From Herbaspirillum hiltneri N3 (GTDB lineage: Bacteria; Pseudomonadota; Gammaproteobacteria; Burkholderiales; Burkholderiaceae_D), in the NCBI RefSeq assembly GCF_001267925.1, contig NZ_CP011409.1:3472001-3536000 (forward strand): a stretch of DNA of 64,000 nucleotides, written 5' to 3'. How positions within the stretch are numbered: position 1 is the stretch's first letter; each line of letters opens with the position of its first letter. Shown piece after piece: positions 39,510 to 56,689 of this stretch. The notes below the pieces were generated by a model. That model was not told the origin of the DNA, searched no databases, and saw nothing but the letters and a program-made list of their open reading frames with translations. Made by a program: the position numbers and the translations under genes.

Positions 39510-39599
39510 GGAAGGTTGGCAGAGCGGTTGAATGCACCAGTCTTGAAAACTGGCGAGGGTGAGAGCCCTTCGTGAGTTCGAATCTCACACCTTCCGCCA
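39510..39599 (+). tRNA. tRNA-Ser (anticodon TGA)
   Basis: A 90-base tRNA with a 7-bp acceptor stem (GGAAGGT / ACCTTCC), D-arm, anticodon loop CTTGAAA with anticodon TGA, a long class II variable arm, T-arm GTGAGTTCGAATCTCAC and an encoded CCA end. The long variable arm and anticodon identify it as serine, reading UCN codons ending mainly in A/G. Confidence 0.97.
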
Positions 39600-39728: not shown

Positions 39729-40355
39729 TCATTTTAACGGCACAGATTTTCTTCGCGCCGGCGCCGCAGCTGGTGGTTCAAGCAGCGTCAGCGCCGGCCT
39801 GATCATTCCTTCCAGCAGCGCCTTTTCGGGCTTGGTGCGAGCGAGAACCCGTACGCCGATATGCAGGCCCAGCAGCATTCGGCCCAGGTCGGCGGCCGGG
39901 ATCGCTGACTGTATCGAACCGTCGCGTTGCCCGGCCTGGACGTTGCGGAAAAAGAATCCTTCGATCTGGCTCAGCACGTCGTTGACGATGTCACGAAACT
40001 CCGGATCATGCGGCGCTGTTTCCAGGGCCGAGTTGATCAGCATGCAGCCGCGCCGCTGGCGGTCATTGACGGAATGCTGAATGATTTCGGCGAAGAACGC
40101 CCTGATCGCTTCAAGCGGCGGCAGTTGCCCTTCAAAACGTTGCACACGGTCGGCGAAGCTGGCGGCGATGTAGTGCTCCAGCGCCCGGCCGTACAGGCCG
40201 CGTTTATCGTCGAAGGCATTGTAGAGGCTGGCTTTGGTCAGGCCCGTCCTTGCGACGAGGTCATGCATCGAGGTGGCTTCGTAACCATGCTTCCAGAAGC
40301 ATTGCACCGCCGCATCCAATACCTGCGCTTCATCAAATTCTCTTGGGCGTCCCAT
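39729..40355 (-). CDS. TetR-family repressor (NemR-like), paralogue of the one at 54733
   Basis: 208 residues. The start GRPREFDEAQVLDAAVQCFWKHGYEATSMHDL and helix-turn-helix VARTGLTKASLYNAFDDKRGLY are followed by a ligand domain with RRGCMLINSALETAPHDPEF, where a conserved Cys could sense electrophiles as in NemR (inference). It is divergent from the small ORF/GST/SDR/HAD genes and an 18-bp palindrome lies between them, so it probably represses both directions. Confidence 0.88.
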   Translation of the reverse strand: MGRPREFDEAQVLDAAVQCFWKHGYEATSMHDLVARTGLTKASLYNAFDDKRGLYGRALEHYIAASFADRVQRFEGQLPPLEAIRAFFAEIIQHSVNDRQRRGCMLINSALETAPHDPEFRDIVNDVLSQIEGFFFRNVQAGQRDGSIQSAIPAADLGRMLLGLHIGVRVLARTKPEKALLEGMIRPALTLLEPPAAAPARRKSVPLK

Positions 40356-40423: not shown

Positions 40424-40441
40424 TTAGACCAATTGGTATAA
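40424..40441. promoter_or_regulatory. TetR operator TTA-GAC-CAATTG-GTA-TAA
   Basis: An 18-bp near-perfect dyad with the central CAATTG palindrome and outer TTA/TAA arms, located 68 bases upstream of the repressor start and 27 before the first ORF on the plus strand. Its TAGACC half resembles the NemR box. A second site with the same layout lies next to the paralogous TetR gene (55379-55396). Confidence 0.7.
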
Positions 40442-40467: not shown

Positions 40468-40631
40468 GTGCAAACGTTCTGTGAACTGTTTTTGGCGCTG
40501 TCGGCATGATGGCCATCGCGGTCATCGCCACCGGTGTTTCCGTGGCGGCCAGGCCACCGGCTCACAGCACCGTTAGCTTCGTGCCGGCGCCTGAACGTCA
40601 ACGTCCACTTCCAACAAGGAGCATCCGCTAA
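40468..40631 (+). pseudogene. Small membrane protein, apparent one-base frameshift
   Basis: AAGGAG and a 6-base spacer precede a GTG that opens a 13-codon peptide (MQTFCELFLALSA) ending in TGA at 40507. An ATG overlapping that stop begins a second 41-codon frame starting MMAIAVIATGVSVAARPP and ending at the GST start codon (TAATG). Restoring one G at the GGC near 40504 would fuse both into a 54-residue protein with one continuous membrane helix. So this is either a broken small gene, an assembly error, or two overlapping coupled peptides. Unknown function; first position in the TetR-controlled operon. Confidence 0.4.
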
Positions 40632-41332
40632 TGATCCGCTTTTATTTCCATCCCACTCCGAACCCGGCAAAAGTCTCGCTGTTTCTTGAAGAGACCGGCC
40701 TCGACTACGAGATTATTCCCGTCGATACGCGCAAGGGACAGCAGCACGATCCCGAATTCCGCAAGATCAATCCCAACGGCAAGGTGCCGGCCATCGTCGA
40801 TACGGACGGACCGGGAGGCGTGCCGGCAACAGTCTTCGATTCCACCGCCATTCTGCTGTATCTGGCGGAAAAGACCGGCCGCTTTTTCGGCCAGCCTAAG
40901 GACCGCGGCGAAGTCTTGTCCTGGCTGATGTTCATCGCCACCGGCCTGGGACCTTTCTCGGGACAAGCCGTCCATTTCCAGCATGCGGCGCCTGCCGGCC
41001 TGGATTATGCAGTCAACCGCTACCGGCGTGAAATCGACCGGCATTATCAGGTGCTCAACCAGCGGCTGGAGGGGCGCACCTATATCGTCGGTGACGAATG
41101 CACCGTCGCCGATATTTCGGCGTGGGGATGGGTGGACCGGGCCGGACACGTTTTCAAGAAACCGGAAGATCCGCTGGGCGACTACCCCAATGTCAAGCGC
41201 TGGTTCCAGGCCATGGACGCCCGGCCGGCGACTGCGCGAGCCCGGAAGGTCGGCGCCGATATCGATTTCAAGAAGACCAATGACGAAGAAGCACAACGGG
41301 CCTTGTTTCCTTCTAACTATCCTGCCGTCTGA
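40631..41332 (+). CDS. Glutathione S-transferase family protein (YfcG/YghU-like)
   Basis: 233 residues. N-terminal thioredoxin-like domain (FYFHPTPNPAKVSLFLEETGLDYEI; NPNGKVPAIVD; DSTAILLYLAEKTG with the glutathione-contacting Asp-Ser) and a C-terminal helical domain (VGDECTVADISAWGW). The type is close to Ure2-like disulfide-bond reductases. AAGGAG precedes the ATG. It starts a detoxification operon with an SDR and a haloacid dehalogenase-type HAD, controlled by the divergent TetR. Confidence 0.9.
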   Translation: MIRFYFHPTPNPAKVSLFLEETGLDYEIIPVDTRKGQQHDPEFRKINPNGKVPAIVDTDGPGGVPATVFDSTAILLYLAEKTGRFFGQPKDRGEVLSWLMFIATGLGPFSGQAVHFQHAAPAGLDYAVNRYRREIDRHYQVLNQRLEGRTYIVGDECTVADISAWGWVDRAGHVFKKPEDPLGDYPNVKRWFQAMDARPATARARKVGADIDFKKTNDEEAQRALFPSNYPAV

Positions 41333-49689: not shown

Positions 49690-51354
49690 TCAGGCGCGAG
49701 CGCGGTCATAGCCCAACGCGCGCATTGACGCCGCTGCTGGTTCGCGATCCGGCTGCGACAGCCCTGGCGCAAGCAAAGGCGTCTCCGGCGGCAACGGTTC
49801 GGCGGTGTCGATACTGAACACCGATACCGATTCCAACAGACTGCCAGCCTGGCGCGTCAAGGCATTCGCCGCCGCGGCCGTATGGTCGACCAGCGCGGCA
49901 TTTTCTTGCGTGGATTTGTCCATTTCGACCACAACCCGGCTGACCTGCTCCAGGCCTTCCGCCTGTTCTTGGGTGGCGACGGAGATGTCGTTCATGGTGT
50001 TCATCACCGTGTTGACGGAGGTGACGATCTGTTCCATCGCGCGGCCGGTTTCCATCACCTGCGCCGAGGCCAGATCGATGCAGGCGGCCGATTCCCCGAT
50101 CAGCACTTTCACCTCCTTGGCTGCCTCGGCGCTGCGCAACGCCAGCGAGCGCACTTCCGTGGCGACCACCGCGAATCCGCGCCCCTGAGTGCCGGCACGG
50201 GCCGCCTCGACGGCGGCGTTGAGCGCGAGGATATTGGTCTGGAAGGCGATGCCATCGATCACGCTGACGATCTCCGAAATCTTGCTGGCGCTGCTGGAGA
50301 CTTGATCCATGGTGCCGACGATGCGCATCATCAGTTCCCCACCCTTGACGGCGTCGCCGGCGGCAGTGGCGGCCAGCCGGTTGGTGTGGAGCGTGTTCTC
50401 GGCGTTCTGCTTGACGGCGGCGGACAGTTGTTCGAGCGTCGCCGCGGTTTCCTCCAGCGAGGAAGCCTGCTGTTCGGTACGTGCGGCCAGATCGATGTTG
50501 CCGTGGGCGATGTCACCCGCACTGCGATTGACGTCCTCGGTGCCGCTGCGGATCGATGAGACGGTTTCCACCAGACCTTGCTGCATCCGTTGCAGGGCAC
50601 CGAGCAGCACGCCTATTTCATTGCTGGATGCGCCTTCCACGGGCGCGCTCAGGTCGCCGCCAGCGATCCGGTCGAAATGCCTGCCGGTGGTCGCCAGCGG
50701 ACGCAACAGCACGCGCGCGAACAGCATCCAGTACAAGCCGACCAGCAACAGTGAAAAGACGAACAGGCCGCCGGCCAGATAGGCGGCGATGGCATAGCGG
50801 CGTTCGGAATCGGCGCTCAGCCGGTCGCGCACCGATTCGGCATGGGTGATGACCTTGCGCAGCGTGGCGGCGAACATGCGGTCGGCGTCTTCGGCGCTGG
50901 TGGTCGCGGCGGCATAGGCGTCAAGCGAGACATCGTACAGGGCTACCTCGCGCGCTTCCAGCACCTTGGTGTAGGCGTCGTAGGCGCCGCCGACCTGTCG
51001 CGAACGCTCCGCCAGCCCGGCTTCGGACTTGTCGCCCTTGCGATAGGCATCGAAGGTTTTCTTGGCTTCCTGCAATGCGGTCGAGGCCTTGCGGGTGTAG
51101 TCGTTGGCCTTGACCTGATCGCCGCGCACCAGGTTGATGTAGGCGTTGTCCATGTTGATCAGGGTCGACTGAAACAGCCGCTCGACTTCGTGCAGCGGCT
51201 GGATCTGCCGATCGGACAATTCGATCAGCTCATTCATGGCGCGCGCCGACAGGCGGGCGTCGGTCCAGGCGATAAACACCGCCGTCCATAACGCCAACGA
51301 AAAAATGCCGAGGACGAACAGCAGGCTGGTGCGGATCTTCAGTGTGGCGAACAT
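49690..51354 (-). CDS. Methyl-accepting chemotaxis protein
   Basis: 554 residues: membrane helix (about 9-29), periplasmic four-helix-bundle sensor (about 30-190), second helix (about 192-213), HAMP (about 215-265) and a long cytoplasmic coiled coil whose hairpin tip IDGIAFQTNILALNAAVEAARAG is the CheW/CheA contact region. The C-terminal tail lacks the NWETF-type pentapeptide. It begins 25 bases after the DoxX gene of the bufferin operon on the same strand, with no terminator between, so it may be co-expressed with copper- or stress-related genes. Confidence 0.92.
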   Translation of the reverse strand: MFATLKIRTSLLFVLGIFSLALWTAVFIAWTDARLSARAMNELIELSDRQIQPLHEVERLFQSTLINMDNAYINLVRGDQVKANDYTRKASTALQEAKKTFDAYRKGDKSEAGLAERSRQVGGAYDAYTKVLEAREVALYDVSLDAYAAATTSAEDADRMFAATLRKVITHAESVRDRLSADSERRYAIAAYLAGGLFVFSLLLVGLYWMLFARVLLRPLATTGRHFDRIAGGDLSAPVEGASSNEIGVLLGALQRMQQGLVETVSSIRSGTEDVNRSAGDIAHGNIDLAARTEQQASSLEETAATLEQLSAAVKQNAENTLHTNRLAATAAGDAVKGGELMMRIVGTMDQVSSSASKISEIVSVIDGIAFQTNILALNAAVEAARAGTQGRGFAVVATEVRSLALRSAEAAKEVKVLIGESAACIDLASAQVMETGRAMEQIVTSVNTVMNTMNDISVATQEQAEGLEQVSRVVVEMDKSTQENAALVDHTAAAANALTRQAGSLLESVSVFSIDTAEPLPPETPLLAPGLSQPDREPAAASMRALGYDRARA

Positions 51355-51379
51355 GGCAGGCTCATTCCGTGAGGGTGGA

Positions 51380-51856
51380 TTATTTGATGCCGAACAGGCG
51401 ATCCAGCGACCAGGCGCCGCCGCCGCGCGCGACCAGCAACAGCAGCAAGCCGGCCCAGGTCAGGTGCGTCGGCCAGGCATCGGGATAGACGAAGATCTCG
51501 ATCACCGCGGTCATGCCCAGCAGCCCCAGTGCCGCCGAGCGCGTGAACAGGCCCAGCACCAGCAGCAACGGGAAGAAATGTTCCGCATAGGCGGCCAGGT
51601 GCGCGGCGATTTCCGGCGGCAGCAGCGGCAGCTTGTATTCCTGCTCGAACAGCGTGTAGGTGCTGTCCTTGATGGTCAGGAATCCGCTGACCTTGGTGCG
51701 GCCCGACAAGAAGAACACGGCGGCCATCGCGATGCGCGCCACCAATGCCAGTAGCGACTCGCCGATCAGCGGCGCCAGGCGGTCGACGGCACGGTTGTAG
51801 TAAGCGACCGGCGTGTTCGGCCTGGATGCGGCGATGGTCGATGTGGAAGTGGACAT
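51380..51856 (-). CDS. DoxX-family protein of the bufferin operon
   Basis: 158 residues, four helices. [20 protein letters not shown] and [23 protein letters not shown] are family motifs. GGAGA with a 5-base spacer identifies the ATG at 51856. DoxX members are frequent fourth genes of DUF692/DUF2282 operons; a role in membrane redox chemistry has been proposed but is not established. It is the last biosynthetic gene before the chemoreceptor. Confidence 0.88.
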
Positions 51857-51875
51857 GGCGGTCTCCGTACGGATA

Positions 51876-52664
51876 TCAGTCGGTAGCTGAAGTGGTTGAG
51901 GTAATTGAAAAGGGAGAAGCAAACGCCTGCGCGCTGATCAGCGTGCCGAGCAGATGCGCGACGTCGAGCTCCGGTTCGGCGGCGACCGCCTGGCCGGTGG
52001 CGCTCTGCAAGTCATCGCCGGCGGCGCAGGCATCGAGAAAGACGCACATGCCCCGGCTTGCGGCTTGCCACGCGACCTGGCCGTCGATGCGGCTGAGCAA
52101 GGCGCCCTCGCCGCTCCAGTCCAGCTGGCCGGCAAGTGCACGCTGTGCGCGGTTGGCTTGCCAGATGGAAAACGCCGGCTGTGACGGCGCCCAGCGCCAG
52201 CGCACGCTTGCGCGCGGGTGCAAGGCGCTGCGCAGCAGATCGGCTTCGCTCAATGCGGCAAGCATGGAAGAATCCAGTGCCGCTTCGTCGGCGGCGACGT
52301 GGCATTCGGTCCAGCAACGGTCGAGACGCGCAACGTCTCCGAGATACGGCAAGTCCGCGGCCGGCCCAAATCCATCGAGGAAGCCGGCGAAGCCTTGGCC
52401 GTATTCGATCAGGCAAACGCTTTCAGGCGGCTCGGCGCAGGCGTGGATGAGCGCGGCCGAGCGAAACCATTCGTCGCCGACCAATCGCACGATGGTCGGA
52501 TAGTTCGCGGCGAGCGCATCGACACTGGCTTTGAGAACGGTGTTGCGATAGACCTTGAAGCCGGGCTGCGAAGTCAATGCCGACAGAGATGACGCTGCGT
52601 CGCCCGAGCCGACACCATAGATGGCCCGGATGAAGTCACGCTGGAAGTCGCCGATGCCGTTCAT
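51876..52664 (-). CDS. bufC: DUF2063 bufferin partner protein BufC
   Basis: 262 residues. The N-terminal DUF2063 region is recognised from LQRDF-type start ([13 protein letters not shown]), [45 protein letters not shown]. It is the presumed recognition partner that brings the precursor peptide to the DUF692 enzyme. Its ATG overlaps the stop of bufB by 4 bases. Confidence 0.88.
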
Positions 52665-53503
52665 TTCAGCGCTCCTTGCGCCGTCAGGATGTCCTGCGCC
52701 TGATTGCGTTCGGCAAGCAGTTCGGCAAAACCGGGAATCTTGTCGTCGCGCTCGATCAGCGTCGGCCGCTCGCCGATGCGGTCGATCAGATGCCGATACA
52801 ACGTCCAGACCGCCTCGGCGACCGGCGCATCGTGCGAATCGATCAGCAGAGGAACACCGGCGCCGCCATCGGCGTCGATGCCGTGACCGGCCAGATGGAT
52901 CTCCAGGATCGCCTCGGCAGGCAGGTTGTCGAGATAGGTGCGGGCGTCGTAACCGATGTTGTGGGCGCTGACGCAGACGTTATTGATGTCGACCAGCAAG
53001 CCGCAGCCGCTGCGGCGGACCAGCTCGTCGAGGAAATCGGTTTCGCTCCAGTCGTGATTGTCCATGCGCAGATAGTGCGACGGATTCTCGATGGCGATGC
53101 GATGTTGCAAGTGATCCTGCGCGCGCCGGATATTGGCGGCCGTGCGCGCCAGCACGGCGCTGGTGCGCGGCACCGGCAACAGGTCGGGATAATAGCGCCC
53201 GTCCAGCGTCGACCAGGCCAGATGTTCGGAAATCAGCGCCGGCTCGACGCGACGCATCAATGCAGCCAGGCGGCTGAGATGGCGTTCGTCGGGCGGCGCT
53301 TCGCCCGCAAATGAAAGCGACACCCCGTGCAGCGAGAGCGGATGGCGGCTGCGTACCGCTTCCAGCCATGCCAGCCGCGGACCGCCCGCCATCAGGTAGT
53401 TCTCGGGATGGACTTCAAACCACATGTCGTCTTGCGTGCACTGCAGCGCTTCGTCGAAATGCTGCGGCTTCAGGCCCAGGCCCGCACCCAGTGTCGCTTT
53501 CAT
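52661..53503 (-). CDS. bufB: DUF692 multinuclear non-heme iron oxidase (MNIO) BufB
   Basis: 280 residues, TIM-barrel fold. Probable iron ligands stand in LHGVSLS (His59), SEHLAW (Glu93, His94), IENPSHYL (Glu139), VDINNV (Asp172), SAHNIGYD (His181), HLAGH (His203, His207), DSHDAPV (Asp222, His224) and IERDD (Glu251). MNIO enzymes of bufferin systems convert cysteines of the precursor into oxidised, thiooxazole-type, copper-binding groups. It follows the precursor gene by 19 bases. Confidence 0.92.
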   Translation of the reverse strand: MKATLGAGLGLKPQHFDEALQCTQDDMWFEVHPENYLMAGGPRLAWLEAVRSRHPLSLHGVSLSFAGEAPPDERHLSRLAALMRRVEPALISEHLAWSTLDGRYYPDLLPVPRTSAVLARTAANIRRAQDHLQHRIAIENPSHYLRMDNHDWSETDFLDELVRRSGCGLLVDINNVCVSAHNIGYDARTYLDNLPAEAILEIHLAGHGIDADGGAGVPLLIDSHDAPVAEAVWTLYRHLIDRIGERPTLIERDDKIPGFAELLAERNQAQDILTAQGALK

Positions 53504-53522
53504 TTCAGGCTCCGGGACTAAA

Positions 53523-53801
53523 TCAGACCGCGTTCAGGGAACCCATGCCCTTCGGCGTCTTGATGCTGGTGCAGGTGCCGGCCGGGACATTCTTCCAGGC
53601 GTTGCCCTGGTAGTCCATCTTGGCGGTGCCGGCGCAGGTGGTGCCTTCGCCTGCCTTGCAATCGTTCTGGCCGGCCAGCGAGACGCCATAGCATTTCTCA
53701 ACTGCGGTCTTGGCGGCGGCCGGTGCGTTTTGCGCCATGGCGATGCCGGATGTCAGGGCGGCCAGGGTGAAAGCGGCGGTAGCGAGTTTGATGGTGTTCA
53801 T
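53523..53801 (-). CDS. bufA1: Bufferin precursor peptide BufA1 (DUF2282)
   Basis: 92 residues with a Sec signal peptide (1-23, cleavage after AMA). The mature peptide has exactly four cysteines at 37, 48, 56 and 77 in the DUF2282 pattern: [18 protein letters not shown], and PAGTC preceded by the conserved WKNV. In described bufferins such cysteines are modified by the MNIO enzyme and the product binds copper in the periplasm. First gene of the operon, with an ECF-type promoter upstream. Confidence 0.92.
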
Positions 53802-53894
53802 GGAAGTGCTCCTCAGATTGGAAAGTGAAAGTAGAACGTCGGTGGTATCCAGATACCTGCGATACGGCGTGTTGTGCAGATGATCTGAAGGTTA

Positions 53895-53922
53895 ATTCGC
53901 AAGGAATGGCGATCCGGTTACA
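53895..53922 (-). promoter_or_regulatory. ECF sigma-type promoter of the bufferin operon
   Basis: On the minus strand TGTAACC (53922-53916) and CGAAT (53899-53895) are separated by 16 bases, the spacing and sequence I recall for SigF-type ECF promoters (GTAACC-N16-CGAA). The predicted start is about 85 bases before the bufA1 ATG. Confidence 0.75.
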
Positions 53923-53976
53923 GCCGCTCGAAAATAAATTTGAAATATTTATTTTGCAGACCCTGTAACCGGATCG
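53910..53976. repeat. 14-bp inverted repeat carrying the two divergent promoters
   Basis: CGATCCGGTTACAG (53910-53923) and CTGTAACCGGATCG (53963-53976) are exact inverted copies with 39 bases between them, and the AT-rich centre is itself a dyad (AAAATAAA...TTTATTTT). Identity extends beyond the -35 core through CGGATCG, suggesting strong selection or recent duplication. Confidence 0.85.
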
Positions 53977-53991
53977 GCCGCGTCGACGAAC
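53964..53991 (+). promoter_or_regulatory. ECF sigma-type promoter of the first nrsF-like gene
   Basis: TGTAACC at 53964-53970 and CGAAC at 53987-53991, again with exactly 16 bases between. It faces the anti-sigma gene at 54059, so the sigma factor would drive both the bufferin genes and its own negative regulator. Confidence 0.75.
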
Positions 53992-54058
53992 CTATAGGCA
54001 AGGCGTCTTGCCGGGCCGGTGGCGGTCCATGGGCAGAAGACGCAAGCTGGAGAATCTG

Positions 54059-54703
54059 ATGAAAACACCTGATCTGGTGTCCATGCTGGCAACCGGAACC
54101 ACGCGCAGCGATCCCGACATATTGAGCAAGCGCCTGGGACTGGCGCTGCTGAGCGGCCTGCTGGGCGCCTCCGCGCTGCTGGTGGCCGCCTACGGCATAC
54201 GCGGCGACATGCCGGAATTGCTGACGACGCCCTGGTTCTGGGTCAAGGTGTCGTTTCCGCTGGCGGTGCTGGTGTCGGCACAGGGCGTCACCGCCCGGCT
54301 GGCGCGTCCGGGCGCCTTGCTCGGGGCGCAGCGACTGATCCTGCTGGCCCTGCCGGTACTGGCGATCTGGCTGGCCAGCATCGGCTTCCTGCTGCTGGCG
54401 CCGCCATCGCTGCGGCTGGCGCTGGTGCTGGGATCGACCTGGCAAGTGTGCTCATTGAATATCGCGCTGCTGTCGCTGCCGACTTTCCTGTCGATGTTCT
54501 GGGCCATGCGCGGACTGGCGCCGACGCGGCTGATGCTGACCGGGGCCAGCATCGGGCTGGTGGCCGGCGCCCAGGGCGTGGTGGTCTACACCTTGTATTG
54601 CACGGAAATGGCGATGCCGTTCTGGGGCGTCTGGTATGTGATCGGCATGCTGGCGCCGACGGCGGCGGGCGCCCTGCTCGGCCCGCGCCTGTTACGCTGG
54701 TAG
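54059..54703 (+). CDS. NrsF-type anti-sigma factor (DUF1109), first copy
   Basis: 214 residues, six helices. The two conserved cysteines of NrsF proteins are Cys131 (STWQVCSLN) and Cys181 (YTLYCTEM). The cytoplasmic start TPDLVSMLATG would hold the ECF sigma factor. It has no sigma gene directly in front; it is transcribed from an ECF-type promoter divergent from bufA1. GGAG and a 6-base spacer support the ATG at 54059. About a third of its residues visibly match the second copy at 56048. Confidence 0.85.
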   Translation: MKTPDLVSMLATGTTRSDPDILSKRLGLALLSGLLGASALLVAAYGIRGDMPELLTTPWFWVKVSFPLAVLVSAQGVTARLARPGALLGAQRLILLALPVLAIWLASIGFLLLAPPSLRLALVLGSTWQVCSLNIALLSLPTFLSMFWAMRGLAPTRLMLTGASIGLVAGAQGVVVYTLYCTEMAMPFWGVWYVIGMLAPTAAGALLGPRLLRW

Positions 54704-54732
54704 AGGATGCGAAGGTGCTGCAGACGGAGAAC

Positions 54733-55317
54733 TCAGGGATCGAGCAAGGCGGCGACCGGTCGCACCAGTCCTTCGAGCAAGGCGCGCTCGGGACGAGTGC
54801 GCGCCAATACGCGGATGCCGAGCAAGGTGCTCAGCAGGAAGCGTCCCATATCGTGCGCCGACTGCGCGGAGGAAATGCTGCCGTCGCCCTGGCCAGCGGC
54901 GACGCAACGGCGAAAGAAGGATTCCACCTGCACCAGCACGTCGGCGACCACGCGCTGGAATTCGGGATCGTGCGGCGCGACTTCAAGCGCCGAATTGACC
55001 AGCATGCAGCCCTTGCGATCCTTGTCGGCCAGCGAACGCCTGATGATCTCGTCGAAGAAGGCGGCGATGGCGGCGCGCGGCGGCATGTGGTTCTCGAACC
55101 GGCCAACGCGGTCGAGGAAGCTCTGTTCGACATAGCGGTCCAGCGCGCGCCGGTACAGGGCGCGCTTGTCGCCGAAGGCGTTGTAGAGACTGGCGCCGGT
55201 GATGCCCATGCTGTCGGCCAGCTCGCGCACCGAGGTGGCTTCGTAGCCGCGGGTCCAGAAGCACTGGACGGCGGCGTCAAGCGCCGCTGCTTCGTCGAAT
55301 TCGCGTGGTCGTGCCAT
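54733..55317 (-). CDS. TetR-family repressor, paralogue of the one at 39729
   Basis: 194 residues. ARPREFDEAAALDAAVQCFWTRGYEATSVRELADSMGITGASLYNAFGDKRALY is nearly the same as in the TetR at 39729, and the ligand domain keeps RKGCMLVNSALEVAPHDPEF with its Cys. It is convergent with the first nrsF gene and divergent from the ECF sigma gene, with a shared-type palindrome in between. It may link sigma factor expression to a small-molecule signal. Confidence 0.88.
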   Translation of the reverse strand: MARPREFDEAAALDAAVQCFWTRGYEATSVRELADSMGITGASLYNAFGDKRALYRRALDRYVEQSFLDRVGRFENHMPPRAAIAAFFDEIIRRSLADKDRKGCMLVNSALEVAPHDPEFQRVVADVLVQVESFFRRCVAAGQGDGSISSAQSAHDMGRFLLSTLLGIRVLARTRPERALLEGLVRPVAALLDP

Positions 55318-55378
55318 GCAGCGTGTGAAAGCCCTGTGATTGCCGTGATTGCTCAGTTGAGGCGGCTAGTATATCATT

Positions 55379-55396
55379 TTAAAACAATTGATCTAA
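55379..55396. promoter_or_regulatory. TetR operator TTA-AAA-CAATTG-ATC-TAA
   Basis: The same 18-bp frame as the site at 40424: TTA, three bases, CAATTG, three bases, TAA. It lies 62 bases upstream of the TetR start and about 70 before the ECF sigma ATG, so it may control both. Confidence 0.65.
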
Positions 55397-55466
55397 AACA
55401 AGCCGCAGCACGGAACACGTCTGCGATCGACCATTGCCCTCGCCATACCCATACAGTGGCCGCCGG

Positions 55467-56051
55467 ATGAAGCGACTGACGACAACAGCAGAAACCGATC
55501 CGGGGAAGTCCGTCGAAGAGCGTCTGAAGACGCTGCTTCTGGCCGGACTGGACGGCGATGAAACCGCCTATCACGCCTTTCTCGGCGAACTCAGCGGCCG
55601 CCTGCGCGCCTATGTGAGGAAGCGCCTGTTTCATCTGCACGACGAGGTCGAGGATATCGTCCAGGAAACCTTGCTGGCCGTGCACAACGCGCGCCACACC
55701 TATCGCGCGGAAGAACCTCTGACGGCATGGGTCTATGCCATCGCGCGCTACAAGCTGATGGATTTCCTGCGCATGCGCTCGCGCCACGACGCCTTCAACG
55801 AGCCGCTGGACGACTATGTCGACATCTTCTCCAGCTCCGACGAAGAACCGGCCAACGATGCCAAGCGCGACATCGGCGTGCTGCTGGAGCAACTGCCTGA
55901 CAAGCAGCGCCTGCCGATCATGCACGTCAAGCTGCAAGGCATGTCGGTGACGGAAACCGCACAACTGACCGGCTTGTCCGAATCCGCCGTTAAAATAGGC
56001 ATACACCGCGGCCTCAAATCGCTGGCTGCAAAGATAAGATTGTTTTCATGA
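55467..56051 (+). CDS. ECF RNA polymerase sigma factor (SigF-like)
   Basis: 194 residues. Region 2 is recognised by [25 protein letters not shown] and [15 protein letters not shown]; region 4 by [45 protein letters not shown]. The ATG at 55467 is used; a TTG at 55434 would add 11 non-conserved residues. Its stop overlaps the nrsF start by 4 bases, so sigma and anti-sigma are made together. It most likely recognises the TGTAACC-N16-CGAA promoters near bufA1 (inference). No such promoter precedes the sigma gene itself. Confidence 0.9.
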
Positions 56052-56689
56052 AGACGGACGATTTCATTTCCATGCTCGCTACCGGCGTCAAGCCGGTGGA
56101 TCGTCACGTGCAGGCCAGGCGTTTTGCGCAGGCCATCATCGTCGGCGGCACGGGCGCGTTCATCCTGATGGTGCTGCGCTTCGGCATCCGTCCGGATATC
56201 TCTACGATGCTGGTGACGCCGCTGTTCTGGTTCAAGATGGCTTTTCCCTTTTCGGTGGCGGTCGCTTCGCTGTGGCTGCTGGCGCGCCTGAGCCGCCCCG
56301 GCGCAGGCGTGGGCAAGCGCTGGCTGGCGCCGGCTGCGCCGGTGCTGGTGATCTGGATCGCCGCGCTGGCGGTGCTGGCCGCGGCGCCGGACAGCGAACG
56401 CCTGAACCTGATCATGGGCTTCACCTGGCGCCGTTGCCCGTTCAATATCGCGCTGCTGTCATTACCGTGCGGCGCGACCATCGTCTGGGCGGTGCGCCAG
56501 CTGGCGCCCACCCGCCTGCGAGCGGCCGGCGCCATGGCTGGCCTGCTGGCGGGAGCGGTGGCGACCGTCGCCTATTGCCTCCACTGTCCGGAAATGGGCG
56601 TGCCGTTCTGGGGGATCTGGTATCTCGCCGGCATGTTGATTCCCGCCGTGACGGGGTGGCTGCTGGGACCGGCGTTGCTGCGCTGGTAG
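56048..56689 (+). CDS. nrsF: NrsF-type anti-sigma factor (DUF1109), second copy
   Basis: 213 residues, six helices. Cys130 (FTWRRCPFN) and Cys180 (YCLHCPEM) match the conserved pair reported for Caulobacter NrsF; two more cysteines (141, 177) are unique to this copy. The start [12 protein letters not shown] is shared with the first copy. It overlaps the sigma gene by 4 bases and is its cognate membrane-bound inhibitor, expected to release it on metal or redox stress. Confidence 0.9.

Follow-up and report, generated by a model that had tools for sequence, protein, structure and literature searches.

The 64,000-nucleotide stretch of the Herbaspirillum hiltneri N3 genome analysed here (the window; positions 3,472,001 to 3,536,000 of contig NZ_CP011409.1) harbors a locus for a bufferin, a member of a newly recognised, copper-buffering class of ribosomally synthesized and post-translationally modified peptides (RiPPs) whose physiology is thinly known. 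The locus, at positions 49690-56689 of the window, is probably a bufferin regulon controlled by SigF/NrsF, to which a chemotactic output has been added as a recurring accessory; in one lineage, the sigma factor gene sigF would in addition be gated by TetR. At the level of sequence, the basis of this reading is the gene content, a divergent promoter pair, the linkage of a chemoreceptor gene, the insertion of tetR, and an operator-like palindrome. The regulation, the read-through into the receptor gene, the stress signal, the chemotactic role, and the receptor ligand are predicted from these features. Whereas the core of the bufferin operon and its control by SigF/NrsF have been described before, no published account of the bufferin-linked receptor family or of the rewiring by tetR appears to exist within the open-licence literature searched.

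Five genes lie on the minus strand in the order bufA1 (53523-53801), bufB (52661-53503), bufC (51876-52664), bufD (51380-51856), and the gene of a methyl-accepting chemotaxis protein (MCP; 49690-51354), the bufferin-linked chemoreceptor. BufA1 is the DUF2282 bufferin precursor (Pfam PF10048, 86.2 bits against a cut-off of 22.4), with a signal peptide read by eye and four cysteines (Cys37, Cys48, Cys56, and Cys77). BufB is the MNIO (DUF692) bufferin maturase; it matches Pfam MbnB_TglH_ChrH and the NCBIfam model MNIO_BufB (NF050167, 355.6 bits, cut-off 310), can be aligned to solved DUF692 and MbnB proteins, and yields a single match in the genome when used as a query. The DUF2063 partner protein BufC (PF09836) and the DoxX family membrane protein BufD (PF07681), both above their Pfam cut-offs, complete the core of a Buf1 cluster. 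The NCBIfam models of BufA2 (25.8 of 60) and HvfX (48.3 of 80) are matched below their cut-offs.

The opposite strand carries nrsF2 (54059-54703), encoding a second NrsF anti-sigma protein (Pfam PF06532), a sigF-like gene of an extracytoplasmic function (ECF) sigma factor (55467-56051), and nrsF1 (56048-56689), which overlaps sigF by 4 bp. SigF matches Pfam sigma-70 regions 2 and 4 as well as NCBIfam PRK12536 (314 bits, cut-off 250). Both NrsF proteins score above the Pfam NrsF cut-off and below that of the NCBIfam NrsF model (109 and 135 of 300), and they are the only two NrsF matches in the 4.97 Mb genome. The ATG codons at 54059 and 55467 are the likely starts of nrsF2 and sigF, with TTG 55434 as an alternative for sigF; the family scans of the two genes used the longer starts 54026 and 55434. 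Between nrsF2 and sigF, a tetR gene (54733-55317, minus strand; Pfam TetR_N above its cut-off) diverges from sigF, as bufA does from nrsF2.

A sequence-only reading of the region had named all of these genes, and each is present where it was placed (all above Pfam cut-offs, bufB and sigF in NCBIfam as well), down to the four bufA1 cysteines, the spacing of 25 bp between bufD and the MCP gene, and the upstream nrsF2, tetR, sigF, and nrsF1, with tetR between nrsF2 and sigF. Its statement that DUF692 bufferin operons stand under SigF/NrsF control agrees with published work (PMC3511200, PMC8224329, PMC12452194).

The SigF promoter motif of Caulobacter crescentus is GTAACC-N16-CGAA (PMC3511200). 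Two exact, divergent copies of it occupy the bufA-nrsF2 intergenic region, one 95 nt before bufA (53896-53921, minus strand), as the predicted promoter of bufABCD(-MCP), and one before nrsF2 (53965-53990, plus strand). Conservation of the pair was assessed in 35 bufA loci, one each from 32 genomes of the family with a BufB of at least 62% identity (of 294 genomes) and from the genomes G298, G281, and G297; the last two hold bufA and the receptor with no bufB match in the fetched stretch. An exact SigF-type site precedes bufA in 31 of the 35, and the same 31 have an exact divergent partner. Of the other four, G125 and G118 give no match in the NrsF search, and G161 and G199 have one-mismatch SigF sites, with sigF not being the divergent neighbor of bufA. 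No exact GTAACC-N16-CGAA stands before sigF itself in this genome. Other SigF targets were sought genome-wide and rejected as candidates: GTAACC-N15-18-CGAA occurs at 22 sites as opposed to 40 for the reversed control, and thus the motif alone is not enriched. The seven sites with the N16 spacing comprise the buf pair, four sites inside long open reading frames, and one other (L015), this follow-up being confined to exact sites.

In Caulobacter, NrsF restrains SigF, and changing C131 and C181 of NrsF derepresses the regulon (PMC3511200). The latter is induced by chromate and cadmium (PMC3511200) and by copper, and loss of sigF leads to copper sensitivity (PMC8224329). Cysteines C130 and C180 (NrsF1 numbering) are invariant in all 12 aligned NrsF proteins, NrsF2 retaining both; the alignment holds no Caulobacter protein, and their equivalence to C131 and C181 rests on position.

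The chemoreceptor has a Tar-type four-helix sensor (TarH), a HAMP domain, and an MCP signalling domain, as judged from Pfam (MCPsignal, TarH, and HAMP, all above cut-offs) and from sensor-fold comparison. Its orthologues were sought with the first 215 residues in the 294 family genomes (best 10 candidates per genome) and with the full-length protein in 34 genomes of the genus (best 41 candidates per genome). The sensor-domain search gives 15 strong matches (E ≤ 3.1e-52), followed by a drop to E values of 1e-6 and weaker at 21-26% identity; the full-length search gives 14 strong orthologues (E ≤ 3.5e-180), followed by a fall to about 40% identity. All 15 and all 14, together from 17 distinct genomes, lie at buf or sigF-nrsF loci, and no unlinked orthologue is found among the strong matches in the 294 genomes; this count covers strong matches, three weak family matches (21-26% identity) being left out. 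No near relative of the receptor is found outside the family in 399 genomes of the order (best seven candidates each; best other match E 7.5e-14, 23% identity). A protein search with the receptor returns 46 clusters at E ≤ 1e-10, the last being a Dyella flava protein at 47%. The Dyella protein in turn, searched against 274 genomes of the class (best five candidates each), has no near relative there except the receptor of the window. The receptor is a distinct small family, seen in the examined genomes only beside bufferin or sigF-nrsF genes. The sequence-only reading had treated chemotaxis as an addition to the bufferin circuit; the association holds, as 17 of 17 orthologues are linked, and the receptor is not peculiar to this genome, so that it is a recurring accessory and not a one-off addition. 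Comparison across relatives recovers the same gene order in many genomes, and the order is thus more than chance.

The 17 linked copies fall into four arrangements. Thirteen loci are bufABCD-MCP, with gaps of 4-41 bp between bufD and the MCP gene maintained across a divergence down to 50% identity. One is bufABC-MCP (G125), two are bufA-MCP (G281 and G297), and one is sigF-nrsF1-MCP (G161), in which a one-mismatch SigF site stands 94 nt before the MCP gene. At the bufA-MCP loci, nrsF2 is divergent, the SigF promoter pair is exact, and the fetched stretch contains no MNIO gene. Satellite nrsF2/bufA-MCP loci, in which an exact SigF promoter pair is followed by just the genes of precursor and receptor and the fetched stretch has no bufB match, lie at L061 1795-4849 and L063 6483-9525.

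Transcription into the MCP gene from the buf promoter is likely at bufD-MCP loci. The terminator scan finds no terminator-like site in the 25-bp bufD-MCP gap of the window, and a simple pattern applied to 700 bases finds no FliA-type flagellar promoter before the MCP gene. Downstream of the MCP gene, 60 nt from its stop codon, a terminator-like site (49630-49611, minus strand) fits the end of a bufA-MCP transcript, which is weak evidence, with seven such sites found in the region where 5.2 are expected.

TetR orthologues with 93-96% identity are present in four of the 34 genus genomes (G000, the genome studied here, G196, G240, and G298), and in all four tetR lies between nrsF2 and sigF, divergent from sigF. 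At 16 other loci that have nrsF2 and sigF behind the promoter, the two genes are adjacent, separated by 35-143 nt (hand count from match ends), which would allow both to be transcribed from the SigF promoter. At the four tetR loci, the spacer between tetR and sigF contains a conserved block with TATATCATTTTAAAACAANNGATCTAAAAC, and in the window it includes the palindrome TTAAAACAATTGATCTAA (55379-55396, no strand assigned), a putative TetR operator. The palindrome overlaps the predicted, sigma-70-like tetR promoter (TTTAGA-18-TATACT, 55368-55397, minus strand) and starts just after a weak putative sigF -10 element read by eye (TATCAT, 55372-55377, plus strand). It resembles TTAGACCAATTGGTATAA, the second copy of the operator pattern, which stands at 40424-40441 before the gene of a TetR paralogue with 64% identity to the locus TetR (39729-40355, minus strand). 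The pair scores 30, whereas none of 500 dinucleotide shuffles exceeds 25. When up to one mismatch is allowed, the only two sites of the pattern in the genome are those preceding the two TetR paralogue genes, a rarity that is not independent of the derivation of the pattern from the same two sites. The TetR input claimed in the sequence-only reading is thus plausible with respect to the operator, and it is restricted to four of the 34 genus genomes. Cross-talk between the locus TetR and its paralogue is possible.

On the BufB tree, the genome G287 falls within the tetR clade (support 93/86, which does not reach the starred level), yet it lacks both an orthologous tetR and the palindrome. This pattern apparently reflects a gain of tetR followed by its loss, the operator being lost with the gene. 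The insertion would represent a natural rewiring in which an autoregulatory ECF switch is converted into a repressor-gated one.

In the favored model, membrane-bound NrsF proteins would hold SigF in resting cells. Metal or thiol stress, sensed via the two conserved NrsF cysteines, would free SigF, which would then fire the divergent promoter pair to express bufABCD, the chemoreceptor gene as the last gene of the operon, and nrsF2. The bufABCD genes would yield a copper-chelating bufferin and its maturation proteins, and NrsF2 would act as a SigF-dependent brake. Mostly at times when the stress regulon is active, the receptor would add a periplasmic, Tar-type four-helix sensor to the chemotaxis array, and stress could thereby alter what the cell swims toward or away from. 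The commonest arrangement would have nrsF2-sigF-nrsF1 as one run behind the SigF promoter. In the tetR lineage, tetR separates sigF from that promoter, and sigF would have its own start with a TetR operator, such that the supply of sigF would be gated by TetR while NrsF2 would remain SigF-driven.

Several observations weigh against this model. G125 keeps the receptor although neither an NrsF match nor a SigF site is found there. The bufA-MCP gaps of 234-246 bp in G281 and G297 make co-transcription less sure there, and the MCP gene of the window has a weak terminator-like site 31 nt into its sequence (51323-51306). The putative sigF promoter is weak, was read by eye, and is not flagged by the promoter scan, which finds one promoter, that of tetR, where 1.2 are expected in shuffles. 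Both the operator pattern and the way of scoring it were drawn up with the two sites already in view, and the other three tetR loci keep the half-sites but have a different pair of bases at the center of the palindrome. The MCP tree groups the genome studied here with the tetR-less G275 (86/85), unlike the BufB tree, and the order of the tetR events is therefore not firm. Lastly, of the 33 genomes that have a BufB orthologue, 17 lack the receptor, the family search showing none elsewhere in them; it is therefore dispensable. On the BufB tree of these 33 genomes, its presence in 16 takes eight changes, as compared with a shuffled mean of 11.1 (21 of 500 shuffles are as low), which amounts to mild clustering; the receptor thus comes and goes, yet it is found solely in buf/SigF company. 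The latter absence and the confinement of 14 of the 17 linked copies to one genus would also be expected if the receptor were a passenger, inserted once behind bufD long ago and vertically inherited with no functional tie to bufferins, as would the commonness of MCP genes (at least 41 MCP matches in this genome). Such a history is quite unlikely in view of the four arrangements, some of which pair the receptor gene with no more of the operon than bufA or sigF-nrsF1, the short bufD-MCP gaps, and the lack of unlinked orthologues among the strong matches in the 294 genomes. In support of the linkage, a control set of 60 BufB loci, hand-picked from above-cut-off rows and not drawn at random, covers 54 genomes from the other families of the class; a single one of these loci has an MCP match in the fetched stretch, ending 1.6 kb before bufB. 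This control is tempered by its bufA and nrsF matches (21 of 60 and one of 60, respectively, with some stretches ending at contig ends), so that many of its loci are bufferin clusters of other kinds.

What the receptor and TetR respond to admits several answers. Operon logic, the flight of Caulobacter from copper (PMC10579534), the copper induction of its SigF regulon (PMC8224329), and the invariant Met68-Asp69-Asn70 of the sensor are all compatible with a direct copper or metal-ion sensor that guides flight from metal. The sensor, however, lacks cysteine in 17 of 17 orthologues and has no invariant histidine; no Cys/His copper site of the McpR type is found in it, which speaks against copper sensing of that type. 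Direct copper sensing is thus not favored and is judged unlikely. Somewhat less unlikely is that TetR responds to an electrophile or aromatic compound and that the locus mainly serves an electrophile-stress response, with metals secondary. The TetR paralogue adjoins a divergent, glutathione-transferase-like gene (40631-41332, plus strand, by eye) and has the similar operator; the best NCBIfam model for the locus TetR is AcuR of acrylate use, far below its cut-off; and the nearest solved sensor by sequence to receptor residues 1-215 is that of PcaY_PP, an aromatic-acid receptor (E 1.5e-6). On the other hand, PcaY_PP is not recovered with a sensor-only profile at E ≤ 1, orthologous tetR is absent from 30 of the 34 genus genomes, and the core is a bufferin system (PMC12452194). 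Sequence matches of the sensor to solved sensors are all weak, and the Foldseek pdb neighbors are those of higher rank, which alone could appear. The ligand or co-ligand might also be the mature bufferin peptide in the periplasm, metal-loaded or empty; this proposal, doubtful as it is, fits the two-gene bufA-MCP loci of G281 and G297 and a patch of the sensor that is highly conserved and probably membrane-distal. If true, a RiPP metallophore would serve in chemotaxis in the manner of a periplasmic binding protein.

The closest known system is the SigF/NrsF regulon of C. crescentus (CC3252-CC3257 and CC2905-CC2907), which shares the ECF sigma factor and NrsF, the GTAACC-N16-CGAA promoters, the DUF2282-DUF692-DUF2063-DoxX operon, and the two NrsF cysteines (PMC3511200). 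In contrast to the locus described here, in which tetR splits sigF from the SigF promoter, its regulon table, as excerpted, lists no chemoreceptor, second NrsF, or TetR. Bufferin (Buf1) clusters, including gig of Cupriavidus (named in PMC8224329), have the core bufABCD in common with the present locus, and some include sigma factor and NrsF genes (PMC12452194). The same survey of MNIO clusters reports additional conserved genes in extremely low proportions, and the words chemotaxis, methyl-accepting, and TetR do not occur in its main text. In the open-licence literature, bufferins and chemotaxis are co-mentioned solely in PMC12509749, where the words are unrelated in the text at hand, and, among the papers listed, a chemoreceptor is named with DUF692/DUF2282 only in a reference list.

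Copper stress and chemotaxis are coupled in two other systems. McpR of Caulobacter is a chemoreceptor tied to copper stress, but it is cytoplasmic and employs Cys75/His99 (PMC10579534), whereas the sensor of the present receptor is of the Tar type, presumed to be periplasmic, and free of cysteine. In Pseudomonas putida, the copper repressor CsoR binds CheA and thereby links copper resistance to chemotaxis (PMC11978298), while here the receptor gene itself sits in the stress locus. PcaY_PP and the Tar/Tsr receptors show 14-15% identity to the receptor in alignments. Through a receptor family confined, as seen so far, to the neighborhood of bufferin/SigF genes, the bufferin stress response would be linked to movement, and there would be a direct route to what bufferin-making cells need to sense.

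At the gathering threshold, Rfam identifies a single feature in the window, a tRNA gene (39510-39596). Other genes accompany bufferin operons in related genomes. At three loci without the receptor (L037, L039, and L052), the end of the bufD match is followed at 4-13 nt by the start of a TPR-like protein of 441-450 amino acids (by eye), another possible bufferin operon accessory. In G281, a TonB-dependent-receptor-like protein of 704 amino acids (by eye; L060 6265-8379) begins 223 nt downstream of where the bufD match ends, and in G186 (L033 11466-11975) and G217 (L034 6300-6809), bufD is followed by a secreted, methionine-sulfoxide-reductase-like protein (by eye).

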